64,000 bases of DNA from an uncultured Gemmiger sp. (GTDB lineage Bacteria > Bacillota > Clostridia > Oscillospirales > Ruminococcaceae), in assembly GCA_947631565.1 (NCBI GenBank), contig CANRLV010000005.1:1-64000 (forward strand), read 5' to 3'. The translations under genes and the position numbers were made by a program. Under the pieces are notes generated by a model that saw only the letters and a program-made list of their open reading frames with translations, searched no databases and was not told the origin of the DNA. Below are positions 29,246 to 37,851 of the stretch, one piece after another (within the stretch, counting starts at the first letter, position 1; each line of letters opens with the position of its first letter).

Positions 29246-29278
29246 GTCCCCGGCCAAATGGCCGGGGACGGATTTTTT
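29246..29278 (+). terminator. Terminator of the tRNA operon
   Basis: GTCCCCGGCC-AAAT-GGCCGGGGAC followed by GGATTTTTT, three bases after the tRNA-Cys CCA. Confidence 0.93.
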
Positions 29279-29279
29279 G

Positions 29280-29332
29280 TTGACGCCGCGCGTGCGGTCT
29301 GCTATACTGGATTTGCGCAACCGTTGCGCAAA
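29280..29332 (+). promoter_or_regulatory. Promoter and operator of the LacI-type regulator
   Basis: TTGACG and TATACT (17-base spacer, 29280-29308) are followed by a 21-bp palindrome TTTGCGCAAC-C-GTTGCGCAAA at 29312-29332. The palindrome covers the start of transcription, so a bound repressor would block it. The related GCAAC/GTTGC half-sites before the transporter operon suggest that the encoded regulator binds both. Confidence 0.85.
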
Positions 29333-29369
29333 CAACGCATCCACAAACAGGGAAAGGGGAGTGCCTGCC

Positions 29370-30368
29370 GTGGCCCAGCAGCCGTTGACCATCAGCGATG
29401 TGGCCGAAGCCCTCGGTATGTCCAAGACAACCGTCTCGCGCGCCATCTCCGGCAAGGGGCGCGTCAGCGAGCAGACCCGCACCCGCGTGCAGGCCTACAT
29501 CCGCGAGCACAACTACAGCCCCAACGCCATGGCGCGCGGTCTTGCCCAGAGCCGTACCTATAATATAGCGCTGGTGGTATCGCGCCAGTTCTCCAACTTT
29601 GACCTGCCCTTTGTGCGCAAAAGCCTGACCGCCGTGTGCGAGGCCGCCGCCCAGAGCGACTACGAGATCATCCTGACCATCGCCGGCGGCAACAACACGC
29701 TGCCGCTGCGCCACTTGCTGGACAAGGGCAAGGTCGACGGCGTGATCCTGACCAGCGCCATCGAGCACAACCCCCTCGTCGAGCTTTTGCAGGAGCGCGG
29801 CATCCCCTTTGTGGTGCTGGGCACCCTCGACGACAAAAGCATTTTACAGGTGGACAACGACCAGGTCGCCGGCTGCCGGGACCTGACCGCCGCCATGCTC
29901 GAAAAGGGGATGCAGCGCATCGCGCTGCTGGGCGGCTCGCAGCGCTACACGGTCAACAGCAGCCGGCTGGAGGGCTACCTGCAGGCGCACCGCCAGCGCG
30001 GTATCGAGCCGGACCCCGCCCTGCGTATGCTGGAGCTCGAAAGCCTGCAAAGCCGTCTGGCAGGCCTTGAGCAGGTGCTGCGCCAAAGCCCCGACTGCAT
30101 CCTGTGCATGGACGACGAGCTGGCGCTCATCGTGCTGCGCCAGCTCAAGGCCAAGGGCCTGCGGGTGCCGCAGGATATCCGCCTGGCCGCCATGTATGAC
30201 AGCGAGGACCTGGAAAAGTGCGAGCCCAGCATCACAGCCGTCCGCTTTGACGCCGAGCAGCTGGCCCACCGCGCCTACCAGGTGCTGCTGGATGCCATCA
30301 ACGGTCTGCCGCTGAACAGCGGTCTGGCCGGCGGCTACCAGCTGGCTCTGCGCCAGTCCACACTGTAA
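29370..30368 (+). CDS. LacI-family transcriptional regulator (GanR-like by context)
   Basis: A 332-residue LacI-type repressor: N-terminal helix-turn-helix TISDVAEALGMSKTTVSRAISGKGRVSEQTR and hinge YSPNAMARGL, then a periplasmic-binding-protein-like effector domain. It precedes a sugar ABC transporter and a GH53 galactanase, like ganR in Bacillus, and its own promoter carries a palindrome related to the operators before the transporter. Translation is placed at the GTG (29370) eight bases after AGGGGAG; an in-frame GTG three codons earlier overlaps that site. The effector is inferred to be a galacto-oligosaccharide. Confidence 0.9.
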   Translation: MAQQPLTISDVAEALGMSKTTVSRAISGKGRVSEQTRTRVQAYIREHNYSPNAMARGLAQSRTYNIALVVSRQFSNFDLPFVRKSLTAVCEAAAQSDYEIILTIAGGNNTLPLRHLLDKGKVDGVILTSAIEHNPLVELLQERGIPFVVLGTLDDKSILQVDNDQVAGCRDLTAAMLEKGMQRIALLGGSQRYTVNSSRLEGYLQAHRQRGIEPDPALRMLELESLQSRLAGLEQVLRQSPDCILCMDDELALIVLRQLKAKGLRVPQDIRLAAMYDSEDLEKCEPSITAVRFDAEQLAHRAYQVLLDAINGLPLNSGLAGGYQLALRQSTL

Positions 30369-30627: not shown

Positions 30628-31926
30628 ATGAAAAAACTTCTTGCCCTGACCCTGGCCCTGGCCATGAGCCTGAGCCTGGCCGCCTGCGGCGGCGGCAGCG
30701 GCTCCGCTGCCTCAGGCAGCGCCGGCTCCACCGGCGCTGATTCCTCCGCTGCCGGCGATGCCGCTGCCAGCGGCGAAAAAGCCGATGTCACCCTGACCAT
30801 GTGGGGCGGCGAGGAAGACCAGAACCTCCTGCGCGAGATCTCTGACGCCTTCATCGAGCTGCACAAGGACGAGGCCAACATCACCATCAACCTCGGCGCC
30901 CAGTCCGAGTCCAGCGTCAAGGACACCGTCCTGACCGACGTGACCGCCGCCGCCGACGTCTTCGCCTTTGCTGATGACCAGATCAACGAGCTGGTCAAGG
31001 CCGGCGCCCTGCAGCCTGTTCAGGACATCGAGGGCCGCCTGAGCGTTGACGACATCAAGAGCCGCAACGTCGCTTCCTCTGTGGAGGCTGCCACCGTTGA
31101 CGGCACCCTGTACGCCTTCCCGCTGACCGCTGACAACGGCTACTTCATGTTCTATGACAAGAGCGTCTTCACCGAGGACGACGTCAAGACCATGGACAAG
31201 ATGGTCGAGGTCGCTGCCGCTGCCGGCAAGCAGGTCTCGATGGAAGTCACCTCCGGCTGGTACTTCTACAGCTTCTTCGGCGGCGACCCCACCATGGAGA
31301 TGGGCCTCGCTGACGACGGCGTGAACAACGTCTGCAACTGGAACACCGGCAACGGCGCCAAGATCGCCCAGGGCATCATGGACCTGGCCGCCAAGCCCGG
31401 CTTCATTTCTCAGGATGACTCCGCGTTCGTGACCGGCGTCCAGAACGGCACCGTCGCGGCCGGCATCAACGGCACCTGGAACGCCAACGTGGCCGCCGAG
31501 GCCTGGGGCGACAACTACGCCGCCTGCAAGCTGCCCACCTTCACCGTTGACGGTCAGCAGCAGCAGATGGCTTCCTACGCCGGCTTCAAGCTGCTGGGCG
31601 TGAACCAGCACAGCGCCAACGTCGGCTGGGCCATGCTCCTTGCCGAGTACGTCTCCAACGAGGAGAACCAGGCCAAGCGCTTTGAGCAGCGCGGCCAGGG
31701 CCCGTCCAACATCAACGCCGCTTCCTCTGACGCGGTCCAGAACGATCCCGCCATCGCCGCTCTGGCGGCCCAGGGCGCGTACGCCATCCCGCAGCGCGTC
31801 GGCGGCAACTACTGGGATCCCGCTTCCACCATGGCCAAGAACCTCATCGAGGGCGGCAATGGCATGGACGTGCAGACCATCCTGGACGAGGGCGTTGCCG
31901 GCATCACCGCCGAGGTCATCGCCTGA
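30628..31926 (+). CDS. Sugar ABC transporter substrate-binding lipoprotein (GanS/MalE-like)
   Basis: A 432-residue binding protein: signal peptide with lipobox SLAAC (Cys20), a Ser/Gly/Ala linker to about residue 50, then the MalE-type fold (VTLTMWGGEEDQNLLREISDAF, ADVFAFADDQINELVKAGALQPV). Closest context is GanS of the galactan operon; maltodextrin is the alternative ligand. It is the first gene after the operator cluster, codon usage is strongly biased (GCT, TCT, GTC), and a hairpin after it would keep its mRNA in excess over the permeases. Confidence 0.9.
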   Translation: MKKLLALTLALAMSLSLAACGGGSGSAASGSAGSTGADSSAAGDAAASGEKADVTLTMWGGEEDQNLLREISDAFIELHKDEANITINLGAQSESSVKDTVLTDVTAAADVFAFADDQINELVKAGALQPVQDIEGRLSVDDIKSRNVASSVEAATVDGTLYAFPLTADNGYFMFYDKSVFTEDDVKTMDKMVEVAAAAGKQVSMEVTSGWYFYSFFGGDPTMEMGLADDGVNNVCNWNTGNGAKIAQGIMDLAAKPGFISQDDSAFVTGVQNGTVAAGINGTWNANVAAEAWGDNYAACKLPTFTVDGQQQQMASYAGFKLLGVNQHSANVGWAMLLAEYVSNEENQAKRFEQRGQGPSNINAASSDAVQNDPAIAALAAQGAYAIPQRVGGNYWDPASTMAKNLIEGGNGMDVQTILDEGVAGITAEVIA

Positions 31927-31969
31927 GTTGCCTCCGCACATACCAGCTTGAATAGGTAAACTGTTCACG

Positions 31970-32016
31970 GCCCACCTGGCTCCCGGCGTCGGCCGGGGAC
32001 CGGGTGGGCTCTTTTT
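31970..32016 (+). terminator. Hairpin between binding protein and permease genes
   Basis: GCCCACCTGG / CCGGGTGGGC followed by TCTTTTT. Placed inside the operon, it probably limits transcription of the permeases relative to the binding protein. Confidence 0.75.
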
Positions 32017-32079
32017 ACCGGAACCTTTCCTGGTTGTCCCAAGGAGAAAAAGTACTATAAGAGAAAGGAGAATGTCCCT

Positions 32080-33516
32080 GTGACTGCCATCCAAGAGCAT
32101 ATGCGCAAATTGGAGGAAAAGAATCTTTTCCAGCAGTTTGGTGAGGCATTTACCAAGGGCGATATCTTTACCAAAGTGTCGCTTTTGATTTGGGGCATCG
32201 GCTTTATCGGGCACGGTCAGTTGATGAAGGCCCTGCTCGTTACCCTGGTACAGGCGCTGGGCCTGGGCTTCATCGCCCTGGTCGGCGCGCCCAACCTGGC
32301 CAAGTTCGGGACCTTGGGCACCGTCCAGATGGAGATGGTGTTCGACCCCGTTACCATGCAGAACGTCGCCAACGATTATGACAACTCTTTCGCGATCCTG
32401 CTGTTCAGCGTGATCTCGATCGTCATCATCGTGGCGCTCATCGCCGCCTCCATCATGGTGGTGTGCGCCAACTACAAGCTGCAGCTCATCAAGGACGACG
32501 GCAAAAAGCCCAACAACTTTGTGCAGGACATCCACAGCTACCTGAACGAGAAGTTCTACGTCACGCTGCTGACCCTGCCGGTCCTGGGCGTCGTGGTGTT
32601 CACCATCGTGCCGCTGTTCATTTTGATCTGCGTGGCCTTTACCAACTATGACCAGCAGCATATGCCGCCCAACTCCCTGTTCACCTGGGTGGGCCTGTCC
32701 AACTTCTCGGCCCTGCTGGGCGGCGGCGTGACCGATACCTTCGGCTACGCCTTCGGCAAGATTTTGACCTGGACGCTGGTCTGGGCGTTCTTTGCCACCT
32801 TCACCACTTTCTTCGGCGGCGTGTTGATGGCTATGTTCATCAACGACAAAAAGACCAAGGGCCAGAAGATGTGGCGTACGCTGTTCATGGTCACCGCCGC
32901 GGTGCCGCAGTTCGTTACGCTGCTGCTCATCCGCAACTTCTTTGCGGACAACGGCATCGTCAACGGTATGATGGCCTCCTCCGGCATCACCAACTTCCTC
33001 AAGAGCATCGGGCTCGTCAATTCCAGCCTTTCGTATGTGCCGCTGCTGACCGACTGGCACTGGGCGATGGTGATGATCGTGCTCATCAACATCTGGATCG
33101 GCGTGCCGTACCAGATGCTGATCTCCACCGGCGTTTTGATGAACATCCCCGGCGATATGATCGAGGCCGCCAACATCGACGGCGCCAATCCGTTCCAGAT
33201 GTTCTTCCGCATCAAGCTGCCGTACCTGCTGAGCGTGCAGGGGCCGAGTCTCGTCACCGGTTTCGTGCACAACATCAATAACTTCAACGTCATCTACCTG
33301 CTCACCAACGATACCTACATCAGCCGTGACCAGTCGATGGCGGCCTCCAGCGCCCGCGAAGTCGACCTGTTGGTCACCTGGCTGTTCCGTCTGACGCAGG
33401 ACCAGTACAACTACAAGATGGCCGCCGTTATCGGCATCATGGTCTTCATCGTCTGCGCGGTGTTCACCGTGGTCTGCTTCGGCTATATCAACCGGAAGGA
33501 GGCGACCTTCTCTTGA
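32080..33516 (+). CDS. Sugar ABC transporter permease, MalF/GanP-type
   Basis: A 478-residue permease with an N-terminal extension: an extra membrane region at about residues 30-135, before the transporter core. The EAA loop EAANIDGANPFQMFFRIKLPYL at about residues 365-386 identifies the subunit that contacts the ATPase. Starts with GTG after AAAGGAGAA. The long N-terminal region fits the MalF/GanP class for oligosaccharides. No ATP-binding gene is in the locus, so a shared MsmX-type ATPase elsewhere must energise it. Confidence 0.9.
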   Translation: MTAIQEHMRKLEEKNLFQQFGEAFTKGDIFTKVSLLIWGIGFIGHGQLMKALLVTLVQALGLGFIALVGAPNLAKFGTLGTVQMEMVFDPVTMQNVANDYDNSFAILLFSVISIVIIVALIAASIMVVCANYKLQLIKDDGKKPNNFVQDIHSYLNEKFYVTLLTLPVLGVVVFTIVPLFILICVAFTNYDQQHMPPNSLFTWVGLSNFSALLGGGVTDTFGYAFGKILTWTLVWAFFATFTTFFGGVLMAMFINDKKTKGQKMWRTLFMVTAAVPQFVTLLLIRNFFADNGIVNGMMASSGITNFLKSIGLVNSSLSYVPLLTDWHWAMVMIVLINIWIGVPYQMLISTGVLMNIPGDMIEAANIDGANPFQMFFRIKLPYLLSVQGPSLVTGFVHNINNFNVIYLLTNDTYISRDQSMAASSAREVDLLVTWLFRLTQDQYNYKMAAVIGIMVFIVCAVFTVVCFGYINRKEATFS

Positions 33517-34412
33517 GTACCACTACCATCAACGAGGCCGAGGTGCAAAAGAGTTTGCAGAAGGGCCGCAACAAGCGTCTGGTGGCGTCCATTATCCGCC
33601 ACGCCATCCTGGCTTTCCTCGCTTTCATCTGGCTGGTGCCCATCATCTGGCTGGTGCTGACCTCGTTCTCCACCACCAAGGGCGTCAACTACTCGCACTT
33701 CTTCCCGGAACAGTATACGCTGTGGAACTACACCTCGATGCTGTTTGAGTCGGACACCGTGGCCCAGCTGCCGCAGTGGATGCTCAACACCACCATCATC
33801 GCCATCTTCAACTGTGTCATTTCCACCAGCTTCGTGCTGATGGTGGCTTACGCCTTCAGCTGCTGCCGCTTCAAGGGCCGCACCATGCTGCAGAACCTGT
33901 CGGTCACCGTCAACCTGTTCCCCGGCGTGCTGGCCATGATCGCGGTGTACTTCGTGCTCCGCTTCATGAACCTGACCAACAGCTACGCGGGCCTGATCAT
34001 GGTCTATGCCGGCTCCTCCGGCCTGGGCTACCTGATCTGCAAGGGCTTCTTTGACACGGTCCCGGCCGCCCTGCGTGAGGCTGCGAAGATCGACGGCGCG
34101 TCCGAGGCGCGCACCTTCTTCCAGATCGTCATCCCGCTGTCCAAGCCGATTTTGGTCTACACCATCATCAACTCCTTCATGGCTCCGTGGACCGACTTCG
34201 TCATGGCCAAGATGATCCTCAACTCCGGCGTTTCCACCGACTGGACCGTCGCCATCGGCCTGTCCAATATGCTGGGCCGCAACCTGGTCAACAACTACTT
34301 CTCGCGTTTCTGCGCGGGCGGTGTGATGGTGGCCATCCCCATCTCGGTGCTGTTCGTTATCATGCAGAAGTTCTACGTCGAAGGCGTTACCTCCGGCGCC
34401 GACAAGGGCTGA
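33513..34412 (+). CDS. Sugar ABC transporter permease, MalG/GanQ-type
   Basis: A 299-residue partner permease with six membrane segments and the EAA loop REAAKIDGASEARTFFQIVIPLSKP at about residues 188-212. It starts with a TTG that overlaps the previous stop codon and is placed by GGAAGGAGG ten bases upstream. The Pfam-type BPD transporter core covers most of the protein. A strong terminator follows. Confidence 0.92.
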   Translation: MSTTTINEAEVQKSLQKGRNKRLVASIIRHAILAFLAFIWLVPIIWLVLTSFSTTKGVNYSHFFPEQYTLWNYTSMLFESDTVAQLPQWMLNTTIIAIFNCVISTSFVLMVAYAFSCCRFKGRTMLQNLSVTVNLFPGVLAMIAVYFVLRFMNLTNSYAGLIMVYAGSSGLGYLICKGFFDTVPAALREAAKIDGASEARTFFQIVIPLSKPILVYTIINSFMAPWTDFVMAKMILNSGVSTDWTVAIGLSNMLGRNLVNNYFSRFCAGGVMVAIPISVLFVIMQKFYVEGVTSGADKG

Positions 34413-34434: not shown

Positions 34435-34474
34435 GCCCGCGCCGGCGCGGTTCTACCGCCGGCGCGGGCTTTTT
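34435..34474 (+). terminator. Terminator after the permease genes
   Basis: GCCCGCGCCGGCG / CGCCGGCGCGGGC (13 bp, 9-base loop) followed by TTTTT. Genes beyond it must depend on read-through or a separate promoter. Confidence 0.88.
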
Positions 34475-34510: not shown

Positions 34511-36388
34511 ATGAATGAACTCATCCTCAACATCATCCATCGCCCCGAGATGGTGCCGGAATACGCCGAGAAGGTCACCGGCCACGGCAAGGGCGAGGAC
34601 CTGGGGCGCAAGGCGCTGCTGACCGAAAGCCTGGACATCTTCAAGCTGCAGCAGGCCATCGCCCATAAAAACGGCCTGAAGACCACCATCCAGATGACCT
34701 ATGCCAGCCTGTTCAACGACGAGGCGGTGGCGCTGGCCAAGGCTGACCATGAAAAATACGGCGACGAGATCGCCACCACGCTGCTGGGCCTGCCCTGCAA
34801 GGAATTCCGAGAGAAGTACAAGACCAAGGATTTCTGCATTTGGATGTTTGATATCGAGACCAAAAAATCCATCGTCGACGACGTCTTCGGCAAGTTCTAT
34901 GAGCGCTTCGGTTTTTACCCCGAGAGCACCGGCAGCTATTACATGGACGCCGACCTGACCAACTACATCAAAGAGAAATACCCGATGGTCAAGTGCGCCG
35001 TCGCCACCTGCTGGGAGGAGGGCCCCAAGGCCTACCACACCTGCAACAACAGCTGGTACACGCTGATGGACGGCGGCCCCTGGGCGCCGTGGATCCCCAG
35101 CAAGGTGAACACCCACGCCCCCGCCGCCAACGAGGCCGAGGACAGCGGCATCGTCGCCATCCCGCACCTTTCGCGCGACCTCATCGCCTGCTATGACGGC
35201 AACGGCTCCAACTTCGGCACCCACCCGCAGAACGTGCTGCGCGGCATGGTGTATACGCCGGGGCATTTCGGCCCCGACGGGACCTATTCCGGGCAGGAGT
35301 ACCCGTACCTCTACAACCTTATCGACCAGTACCGCTACCAGGCAAAGTTCAACAATGGCTACTGCTACAATATGCAGTTCGTCGGCCCCGGCTGGATGAA
35401 CAAGATGGGCCGCTGGGATGCCCCGTATGAGCTGCTCAAGGCCAGCTATGAGGACGGCTGCGCCTACTACGGCCAGCTCAAGAAGGAGGGCAAGCTCATC
35501 GACATGACGATGAGCGAGTTCGCCGACCATTACCGCGCCACCCACAGCTACACCACCCCAGAATGCGCGCTCTGGCGTGATATCGTCTACGGCTCCAACA
35601 AGCAGCTGTTCTGGTACTGTGACCCCTATATGCGCGCCTGCGTCAACATGGACCAGGGCGGCGCCATCGTCGACCTGCGCCCCTATGCGGCCAAGCTGGA
35701 ATGGCCCATCGGCATCGGCACGGCCCATGTGCAGGAGTGCGCTTATCCCTTCCTCATTCAGGAAAAGTACCGCGCCGGCTACTTTACCCACTATGCCGGC
35801 GAGGGCACGGTGCGCAGTGCCAAGCTGCGCCATAACGGCGAGGAAGTGGACCTGTGCCTGTGCCGCACCCACGCGCATTTCAGCGAGGAGACGGTGGACG
35901 GCAAGCCGGCCCGCAGGCTGACGCTGGACCCCGTGGACATCGAATTCAGCGACTGCACAGTGAAATTGCAAACGGTCATCACCTTTGTTGAGGGCGAGAG
36001 CGATATCCGCATCGACCGCAACATCCTTGCGATGTCCGACCCGGACGCCGACATTGAGATCGACGAGTACATGGTGGCCTGCTACGGCACGACCGAATAC
36101 CCCGAGGACATGACCCCCGTGCGCCTCTACGCCCACAAGGGCAGCGACGACCACGAGCTGGCCTACGCCTACAAGTGCCGCGAGTGCGAGGTGCCCGCCG
36201 CAGACTGCGTCGAGGCGGTCATCCCGCCCATCAAGACCAGCGTCTGTCTCGAGACCGCCGGTCGTGACGCTGTGGGCTACTACCGCGAGGGCTACGCGTT
36301 CAGCCCCATGTTCACCCTTGGCTACAAGGGCAAGCTCAAAGAGAAGGAGGCGTTCACCACATGGCTCAAGCTGGCAAGGGAAAACTGA
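34511..36388 (+). CDS. Large uncharacterised protein of the galactan locus
   Basis: I do not recognise this 625-residue protein. It has no signal peptide or membrane segment. The N-terminal 270 residues alternate strands and helices as in a (beta/alpha) barrel, with FCIWMFDIETKKSIVDD, STGSYYMDADLTNYI and VATCWEEGPKAYHTCNN, which could line an active site; the layout recalls polysaccharide deacetylase or GH57-like barrels. The C-terminal 280 residues look like a beta-sandwich. Aromatic and acidic residues are plentiful, as in carbohydrate enzymes. ATG follows AAAGGGCTG weakly. Its place between galacto-oligosaccharide permeases and GH53 suggests a cytoplasmic carbohydrate-active enzyme. Confidence 0.7.
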   Translation: MNELILNIIHRPEMVPEYAEKVTGHGKGEDLGRKALLTESLDIFKLQQAIAHKNGLKTTIQMTYASLFNDEAVALAKADHEKYGDEIATTLLGLPCKEFREKYKTKDFCIWMFDIETKKSIVDDVFGKFYERFGFYPESTGSYYMDADLTNYIKEKYPMVKCAVATCWEEGPKAYHTCNNSWYTLMDGGPWAPWIPSKVNTHAPAANEAEDSGIVAIPHLSRDLIACYDGNGSNFGTHPQNVLRGMVYTPGHFGPDGTYSGQEYPYLYNLIDQYRYQAKFNNGYCYNMQFVGPGWMNKMGRWDAPYELLKASYEDGCAYYGQLKKEGKLIDMTMSEFADHYRATHSYTTPECALWRDIVYGSNKQLFWYCDPYMRACVNMDQGGAIVDLRPYAAKLEWPIGIGTAHVQECAYPFLIQEKYRAGYFTHYAGEGTVRSAKLRHNGEEVDLCLCRTHAHFSEETVDGKPARRLTLDPVDIEFSDCTVKLQTVITFVEGESDIRIDRNILAMSDPDADIEIDEYMVACYGTTEYPEDMTPVRLYAHKGSDDHELAYAYKCRECEVPAADCVEAVIPPIKTSVCLETAGRDAVGYYREGYAFSPMFTLGYKGKLKEKEAFTTWLKLAREN

Positions 36389-36588
36389 ACTACCGCTGCC
36401 CGTCCTGCTTCATGCGCGATCTGGACATCGATATGTTCTATGACAAGGACAAGAAGGAATACTATTGCATCCGCTGCCAGTACACCGGCAGCGAGGAGGA
36501 CGTCATCGCCAAGAACCAGATGGCGCGCTTCCGCTATCGCTTCATCGCAAAACGCTTTGCGATGGACGAGTTTGAAAAATTTGACTGA
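36361..36588 (+). CDS. Small zinc-ribbon protein
   Basis: A 75-residue protein with CPSC (residues 13-16) and CIRC (36-39), a four-Cys zinc ribbon, followed by a basic/aromatic helix FRYRFIAKRF. Its start lies 28 bases inside the end of the preceding gene, with AAGGAGG just upstream, so it is probably translated by coupling. I have no function to offer. Confidence 0.75.
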   Translation: MAQAGKGKLNYRCPSCFMRDLDIDMFYDKDKKEYYCIRCQYTGSEEDVIAKNQMARFRYRFIAKRFAMDEFEKFD

Positions 36589-36738: not shown

Positions 36739-37851
36739 ATGCAGTACATCAAGGGCTTCGATGTGTCCAGCCTGCCGGAGGTCGAGCGCTGCGGCGCCCG
36801 CTTCTATGATCATGGCGCCGAGAAGGACGCGCTGACCATCCTGCGCGAGCACGGGGCCGGCTGGGTGCGCCTGCGTCTTTGGAACGACCCCTATACCCCC
36901 GACGGACGCGGCTACGGCGCCGGCAACTGTGCGCTGCCCACCGTGCTGGAAACGGCGCGCCGGGCCCGTAAAATGGGCTTTAAATGGCTGCTGGACTTCC
37001 ATTATTCGGATTTCTGGACCGACCCCGGCAAGCAGACCCTGCCCAAGGCGTGGCAGGGCATGGACGAGGCGGAGCTGGCCGGGGCCATCGCCCGCTATAC
37101 GGCGGATGTGCTGGGCGCCTGCCGCGCCAACGGCACCGTGCCGGACATGGTGCAGGTCGGCAATGAGCTGACGGGAGGTCTTTTGTGGCCGGTGGGCAAG
37201 ACGCCCAACTGGGACGCCATCGCCCATCTCGTCGGCGCCGGGGCGGGGGCGGTCAAGGCTTTCCGCGAAAGCATCCCGGTCATGGTCCACCTGGACAACG
37301 GCGCCAACCGGGCGCTGTTCCAGACCTGGTTCGACAACTACTTTGCCCGCGGCGGCATCTGCGACGTCATTGGTATGAGCTTTTACCCTTACTGGCACGG
37401 CACGCTGGATGAGCTGCAGGCAAACATGAACTTTGTGGCCGAACGCTTTGGCAGGGATATCGTGGTGGTCGAGACGAGCGCAGCTTTCACGATGGAAAGC
37501 TACGCCGCGCGCGAGGGCCTGCCGGATGACTGCCGCAAGGGCACGGCGCTGCGCAATGTGCCGGCCGAAAAGTTCGGCTTTGCACCCACACCGCAGGGCC
37601 AGTGCGACTATGTGCGCCGCCTGCTGCAGGCCATCGAGAGCCTGCCGGACGGGCACGGCCGCGGCTTTTTCTGGTGGGAACCGGCGTGGCTGCCGGTGCC
37701 CGGCAGCGGCTGGGCCGAGCAGCCCGGCTGGGAGTATGTGCATGAGCAGGGTCCCGGCGGCAACGAGTGGGCCAACCAGGCACTGTTTGACTATGACGGC
37801 AACGCCCTGCCGGCACTGGATGTCATCCGGGATTACCGGCCGCAGGACTGA
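36739..37851 (+). CDS. Arabinogalactan endo-beta-1,4-galactanase, GH53
   Basis: A 370-residue GH53 enzyme that cuts beta-1,4-galactan, the side chain of pectic rhamnogalacturonan I. FDVSSLPEVE at the N-terminus, WVRLRLWNDP, the acid/base Glu in VQVGNELTGG at about residue 146, and the nucleophile Glu in IVVVETSAAF at about 249 are all visible. There is no signal peptide, so unlike GanB of Bacillus it should be cytoplasmic and act on imported oligosaccharides. AAAGGAAG precedes the ATG at 36739. The family call is strong. Confidence 0.92.
   Translation: MQYIKGFDVSSLPEVERCGARFYDHGAEKDALTILREHGAGWVRLRLWNDPYTPDGRGYGAGNCALPTVLETARRARKMGFKWLLDFHYSDFWTDPGKQTLPKAWQGMDEAELAGAIARYTADVLGACRANGTVPDMVQVGNELTGGLLWPVGKTPNWDAIAHLVGAGAGAVKAFRESIPVMVHLDNGANRALFQTWFDNYFARGGICDVIGMSFYPYWHGTLDELQANMNFVAERFGRDIVVVETSAAFTMESYAAREGLPDDCRKGTALRNVPAEKFGFAPTPQGQCDYVRRLLQAIESLPDGHGRGFFWWEPAWLPVPGSGWAEQPGWEYVHEQGPGGNEWANQALFDYDGNALPALDVIRDYRPQD

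Follow-up and report, generated by a model that had tools for sequence, protein, structure and literature searches.

An overlapping gene pair in gut Clostridia encodes a predicted glycoside hydrolase/deacetylase-superfamily protein and a small zinc-ribbon protein, with one branch tied to GH53 galactanase loci

Dietary fibre commonly includes pectic galactan, the use of which is less well understood in gut Firmicutes than in Bacteroides. The ganSPQAB operon of Bacillus subtilis (cycB-ganPQAB) serves the import of galacto-oligosaccharides (PMC5730181). Like the locus described here, it contains genes for a solute-binding protein, two permeases and a GH53 galactanase. However, the Bacillus GH53 enzyme GanB is extracellular, whereas the GH53 protein encoded in the present locus is cytoplasmic. 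The described Bacillus operon also lacks the gene pair that is our subject, and the present locus has no GH42 gene between the permeases and GH53. Arabinogalactan utilization loci in Roseburia and Eubacterium rectale likewise combine GH53, an ABC importer, a LacI regulator and GH2/GH42 enzymes in gut Firmicutes, and the passages of that report consulted here describe neither the large protein nor the zinc-ribbon partner (PMC5320581).

The locus lies in a 64,000-nucleotide stretch of DNA from an uncultured Gemmiger species, here called the window, and contains the following features.

29277..30368, + strand, LacI-family regulator (PF00356/PF13377); the true start may be further in
30628..31926, + strand, lipoprotein solute-binding protein, GanS-like (PF13416; NF053763 at E 3.1e-23 and 82 bits, below the cut-off of 700)
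32080..33516, + strand, MalF/GanP-type permease (PF00528, MalF model)
33513..34412, + strand, MalG/GanQ-type permease (PF00528, MalG model)
34435..34474, + strand, terminator-like GC hairpin with a U-run (minimum free energy -46.8 kcal/mol for a 100-nt stretch, z -3.7)
34511..36388, + strand, large protein gene, 625 aa (unbroken open reading frame with translation)
36344..36350, + strand, Shine-Dalgarno sequence AAGGAGG of the zinc-ribbon ORF, within the coding region of the large gene
36361..36588, + strand, zinc-ribbon ORF, 75 aa, CPSC...CIRC (tblastn across the loci; constant start, Shine-Dalgarno sequence and four cysteines)
36739..37851, + strand, GH53 endo-beta-1,4-galactanase, cytoplasmic form (PF07745, E 9.4e-107; N-terminus without a hydrophobic stretch)

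A first-pass annotation of this DNA placed the large protein between the permeases and GH53. The ABC genes do lie upstream and GH53 downstream, but the ribbon ORF, which that annotation did not report, overlaps the 3' end of the large gene and separates it from GH53. Also unreported was the hairpin between the MalG-type gene and the large gene. Because this hairpin and its U-run follow the MalG-type gene, transcription of the enzyme genes may be separate or subject to attenuation. The importer genes (30628-34412) include no ATPase gene of their own, and the importer likely uses a shared MsmX-like ATPase encoded elsewhere; an ATPase gene was recognised by eye in the related loci L016, L018, L135 and L139.

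The large gene is an intact reading frame for a protein of 71 kDa (pI 5.2). It encodes no signal peptide, in agreement with the cytoplasmic location assigned at first pass, and the motifs quoted there (DIETKK, CWEEGPKAYH and DADLTN) are present. The protein had been called uncharacterised, and it indeed matches no curated family: scans with Pfam, NCBIfam, PADLOC and PHROGs gave no match (no Pfam family at E ≤ 1), and a phmmer search of the PDB with the single sequence found nothing significant. The window genome contains one copy of the gene. A scan of GTDB representatives identified at least 576 stretches that encode relatives. The best 80 of these are 76–95% identical and come mostly from gut Lachnospiraceae and Oscillospiraceae, the closest relatives being rabbit-gut Gemmiger MAGs. 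Since orthologues are 60–97% identical and relatives are this numerous, the reading frame is not a chance one. Among genomes of the same family, six carry close forms, full or partial, at 60–81% identity (two of these are fragments), one has a 37% identical homologue, and others have distant relatives of 500–830 aa that share the N-terminal part. In a phylum-wide genome sample the only match was in the window's own genome. Viral contigs contained no relatives, and a viral structure library gave nothing relevant. A family encoded in at least 576 stretches of species-representative genomes is thus unnamed in the profile libraries used, and its partner, at 75 aa, is too short to be considered in ordinary scans. 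A F5_F8_type_C match was seen in one of 22 aligned members.

The fold of the large protein was approached from both sequence and structure. A broad profile, made from an alignment of 22 relatives with 16–71% identity to the query, matched only one PDB sequence by hmmsearch, 3lm3 (E 3.9e-9), a protein of Parabacteroides distasonis described as a "putative glycoside hydrolase/deacetylase". PDB searches with a profile of the close orthologues alone, or of the distant group alone, retrieved nothing. An AlphaFold2 model of the large protein was built with 42 close homologues (mean pLDDT 64.6), and a second was made of the N-terminal 395 residues alone (pTM 0.76). Model confidence is moderate (mean pLDDT 65–68) and is poor at residues 168–189 and 220–248, the latter containing Asp223. 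In Foldseek searches 3lm3 ranked first for both models. It was followed by a GH57 4-alpha-glucanotransferase for the first model (3lm3 at E 7.3e-12) and by polysaccharide deacetylases and GH57 branching enzymes for the second (3lm3 at E 1.3e-12). GH57 matches occupied ranks 2–4 and 6–9 and included 1k1x, 3n8t, 5wu7 and 2b5d. The C-terminal half of the model resembles galactose-mutarotase-like beta-sandwiches.

Profile similarity and the two first ranks in Foldseek support homology to 3lm3, a member of the DUF3863 superfamily, and as the sequence profile and the structure search agree independently, we assign the large protein to the glycoside hydrolase/deacetylase superfamily. On these models it is predicted to consist of an N-terminal (beta/alpha)-barrel and a C-terminal galactose-mutarotase-like sandwich, and to represent a family of the GH57/GH38/NodB superfamily that is new with respect to the profile libraries used. 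The first-pass annotation had described a barrel-like N-terminal half and a beta-rich C-terminal half, which the models bear out, and had proposed a profile search and structure prediction of the N-terminal part, which point to this superfamily. Its suggestion of an unassigned glycoside hydrolase or deacetylase holds as far as a carbohydrate-active barrel linked to GH53 is concerned, but the deacetylase half is weakened by the comparisons below.

The DUF3863/DUF3864 protein (PF12979/PF12980; 3lm3, BDI_3119 of P. distasonis) has the same barrel as the large protein. However, the large protein differs in its longer beta-sandwich C-terminal half, its zinc-ribbon partner and its cytoplasmic location. 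The PF12979 profile (cut-off 27 bits) does not match the large protein, finds nothing in the window genome, and reaches at best E 0.022 among the 22 relatives. Our literature search found no paper on DUF3863, and it found 3lm3 in two unrelated papers only. A P. distasonis replicon encodes a DUF3863/DUF3864 protein that is very close in sequence to 3lm3 over the aligned region. In a SusCD locus of this replicon (L212; NZ_OY725801.1 226919-245266), which also contains two GH2 genes, a distant lipoprotein relative of the large protein directly adjoins the DUF3863/DUF3864 protein. This adjacency, in the company of GH2 genes, suggests that the two types of barrel may act on one substrate in P. distasonis.

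GH57 enzymes, such as the 4-alpha-glucanotransferase of Thermococcus litoralis (1k1x) and TK1436, likewise consist of a barrel, helices and then a beta-sandwich. The (beta/alpha)7 barrel, helical region and beta-sandwich of this fold are all present in the model of the large protein, at moderate confidence. In GH57 the catalytic nucleophile is a Glu on strand 4 and the proton donor an Asp on strand 7 (PMC6037648). The large protein similarly has a carboxylate after strand 4, within a G-x-aromatic-x-x-acid motif. Unlike in GH57, this residue is Asp rather than Glu, and the second carboxylate follows strand 6, not strand 7; members of the 600-aa group of homologues have no acidic residue on strand 7. 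The PF03065 (Glyco_hydro_57) profile does not match the large protein and detects one of the 22 relatives at E 0.084 only, and profile-profile comparison with clostridial GH57 by hhalign gave no usable alignment. The Glyco_hydro_38 profile gave no match to the large protein, and the structure searches returned one weak GH38 match, Bl_Man38B. If the large protein is an enzyme, it would work like a GH57/GH38-type glycosidase without being a member of GH57.

The CE4/NodB deacetylases share the N-terminal barrel fold, and polysaccharide deacetylases, not all of them typical (3rxz, 3qbu, 1z7a), are also among the matches of the N-terminal model. The large protein might then be a NodB-type carbohydrate deacetylase, or another non-glycosidic hydrolase, whose targets are substituents on the imported oligosaccharide. 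However, the CE4 metal motifs are absent, since strand 1 reads ILNIIHRP and strand 3 GDEIATTLL in place of TFDD and HxxxH, and Polysacc_deac_1 gives no match. The large protein also has an extra C-terminal sandwich, and mutarotase-like sandwiches of this kind are found in GH57 and GH38 and not in CE4. Pectic galactan, moreover, is usually not acetylated. The missing motifs and the GH57/GH38-like sandwich in particular weaken this reading, which we consider improbable.

Two conserved carboxylates of the barrel are candidates for an active site.

34946..34948, + strand, codon of Asp146, candidate nucleophile, just after barrel strand 4 (residues 139-142 in the model), motif G-x-[YW]-x-x-D
35177..35179, + strand, codon of Asp223, candidate acid/base, after barrel strand 6

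Asp146 is kept in 80 of 80 close homologues, 12 of 13 members of the 600-aa group and 9 of 9 distant relatives. Asp223 is invariant in every aligned row, including that of the DUF3863 protein. In addition, Glu86 is near-invariant in the 600-aa and distant groups, and position 169 carries Asp or Glu. We infer that Asp146 and Asp223 may form a catalytic pair, with the reservation that the model is weakest near Asp223. It also counts against a role for Asp146 that the DUF3863 protein has Ser at this position, in an alignment where the helices correspond, as does a 600-aa homologue in locus L147. The latter (L147:7319-9037, - strand) retains its ribbon gene and is possibly a divergent or inactive member.

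The first-pass annotation had also proposed a survey of gene neighbourhoods for GH53, and the association was found. GH53 is present in 76 of 80 related loci and lies within 1 kb in 75 of them, with a median gap of 277 nt. The GH53 protein of these loci is about 372 aa long, and a strong hydrophobic stretch at the N-terminus is missing from 74 of the 76. In an even sample of 391 clostridial genomes that included the window genome, GH53 occurs in all nine with a close form of the large protein compared with 37 of the 382 others (Fisher p 2e-9, for genomes that are not phylogenetically independent). It occurs in none of the 16 sampled genomes that have only other members of the superfamily.

Some close homologues are found in genomes without GH53. 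One (L015:4148-11172) lies beside a sulfatase gene and GanSPQ-like ABC genes. Another, 67–69% identical, is found with its ribbon gene among GH20C, GH16-ricin-lectin, two-component and ABC genes (L017:7921-17230), a context that resembles those of host-glycan utilization. Given these two loci, the substrate range of the large protein is probably broader than galactan.

The large gene had been described as standing in the place of ganA, which encodes the GH42 beta-galactosidase of the Bacillus operon. This is correct for position only. The large protein does not match Glyco_hydro_42 (PF02449), GH42 genes are present in 22 of 44 complete related loci (GH2 in five), and the window genome itself encodes GH42 on contig C65. 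As GH42 co-occurs with the large gene in this way, we rejected the large protein as a replacement for GanA. A related proposal is that it is an exo-beta-1,4-galactosidase with a new fold, which would trim terminal galactose alongside or instead of GH42, GH2 or GH35. The other 22 complete loci have no GH42, some of them holding only the large gene, the ribbon gene and GH53, and in L017 the one step not accounted for is that of a beta-galactosidase. However, GH42 accompanies the large gene in half of the loci and in the window genome, and we know of no beta-galactosidase in the GH57/GH38/NodB superfamily. We regard this proposal as rather unlikely.

The ribbon ORF encodes a protein of 9.1 kDa (pI 8.4), and in the window its ATG is 28 nt upstream of the end of the large gene's stop codon. 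By tblastn it was detected in 96 of 97 loci, the exception (L037) being a contig that ends inside the large gene. Two of the 96 are cut within the ribbon and were left out, leaving 94 loci with a complete ORF. Each of the 94 starts with its own ATG behind a Shine-Dalgarno sequence that matches at four or more bases, and has four cysteines arranged as two CxxC knuckles (CPxC...CxxC), which identifies a zinc ribbon at the level of sequence. The start is at exactly -28 nt in 88 of the 94, while five divergent homologues have it at -31 or -34. The median Ka/Ks of the ORF outside the overlap is 0.136, which indicates purifying selection. The overlap itself, and a relative frame that is constant in 93 of the 94 loci, would also be expected of a C-terminal extension of the large protein made by frameshifting. 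However, the initiation signals are present throughout, and in one locus (L066) 207 nt separate the large gene's stop codon from the ribbon gene, which is thus detached and has its own Shine-Dalgarno sequence. This detached gene demonstrates that the ribbon is a separate protein, and we rejected the frameshift reading as very improbable.

The ribbon is present with every testable homologue down to approximately 35% identity, including those without GH53 (L015, L017, L019, L140-L144, L147 and L152). No ribbon was found beside the distant relatives of 500–830 aa. Among these, the relatives of 700–830 aa in L021, L022, L023, L024, L145 and L146 carry added C-terminal modules (Fn3_assoc/CHB_HEX_C_1), and the ribbon gene is absent from all six loci. 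A profile search found one ribbon copy in the window genome. Among 14 chosen genomes, those with the 600-aa protein have one ribbon per large gene; G766 has two of each. In G223 a ribbon fragment at a contig end accompanies a large gene that is likewise cut. Nine genomes with only distant relatives gave no ribbon above noise, and solo copies were found in none of the genomes searched. The ribbon therefore accompanies the large-protein family more strictly than GH53 does, and the two genes form an overlapping, strictly co-inherited cassette found in gut Clostridia, with one branch linked to cytoplasmic GH53.

The ribbon protein matches no curated family. Its best NCBIfam hit is ECs_2282_CxxC (E 5e-4), for which the window member scores 18.6 bits where the cut-off is 37, and its best Pfam hit (E 0.0028) is below the curated cut-off. 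The nearest of these sub-threshold neighbours are the transcription-factor zinc ribbons TFIIE and TFIIB. Together with the pI of the ribbon, this similarity would suit a non-catalytic sensor and regulator pair, in which the barrel binds sugar and the ribbon, by binding to nucleic acid or RNA polymerase, regulates the locus. However, sub-threshold matches between zinc ribbons are unspecific, the loci already contain LacI or two-component regulators, and the barrel carboxylates are conserved across the superfamily. We thus consider a regulatory pair quite improbable.

On the computed fold, gene pairing, purifying selection and locus context, we give roughly even weight to the reading that the large and ribbon proteins are obligate partners in a cytoplasmic carbohydrate-active enzyme, most plausibly a glycosidase acting on imported galactosyl oligosaccharides. 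A lipoprotein GH53, encoded as a second GH53 on contig C35 of the window genome, presumably releases galacto-oligosaccharides outside the cell, and these would enter through the ABC importer. The cytosolic GH53, the large/ribbon enzyme and GH42 would then finish the imported oligosaccharides. Coupled translation initiation near the large ORF's stop codon would produce the ribbon protein, which may bind the large subunit and complete or stabilise it. Hydrolysis of the galactosyl oligosaccharide would use the two candidate carboxylates, Asp146 and Asp223. Several points count against this explanation. To our knowledge GH38 and GH57 enzymes all act on alpha-linkages, but the linkages of galactan are beta. 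An exo-beta-galactosidase is already available in GH42, and the GH53-less loci L015, with its sulfatase, and L017, with GH20 and GH16, show that galactan is not necessarily the substrate.

More tentatively, the pair may define a heteromeric glycosidase family, widespread in gut Clostridia, in which a GH57/GH38-like barrel needs a co-translated zinc-ribbon subunit of 7–10 kDa. Such a family might comprise two branches, one bound up with the cytoplasmic GH53 galactanase and others acting on different glycans. We know of no glycoside hydrolase described with an obligate zinc-ribbon subunit encoded by an overlapping gene, and our literature search found no paper connecting a zinc ribbon with GH53 loci. 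Should the two proteins prove to be an enzyme, they would define a new family of glycoside hydrolases, unusual in consisting of two subunits.

A further gene recurs in these neighbourhoods. A protein of the GH13 (alpha-amylase) family, apparently a lipoprotein, is encoded in 15 of the 80 loci and occurs in GH53 galactan loci of at least three divergent lineages. Examples are L134:133-1914 (- strand), L018:6609-8147 (- strand), L139:5683-7281 (+ strand) and L091:17392-19140 (+ strand).
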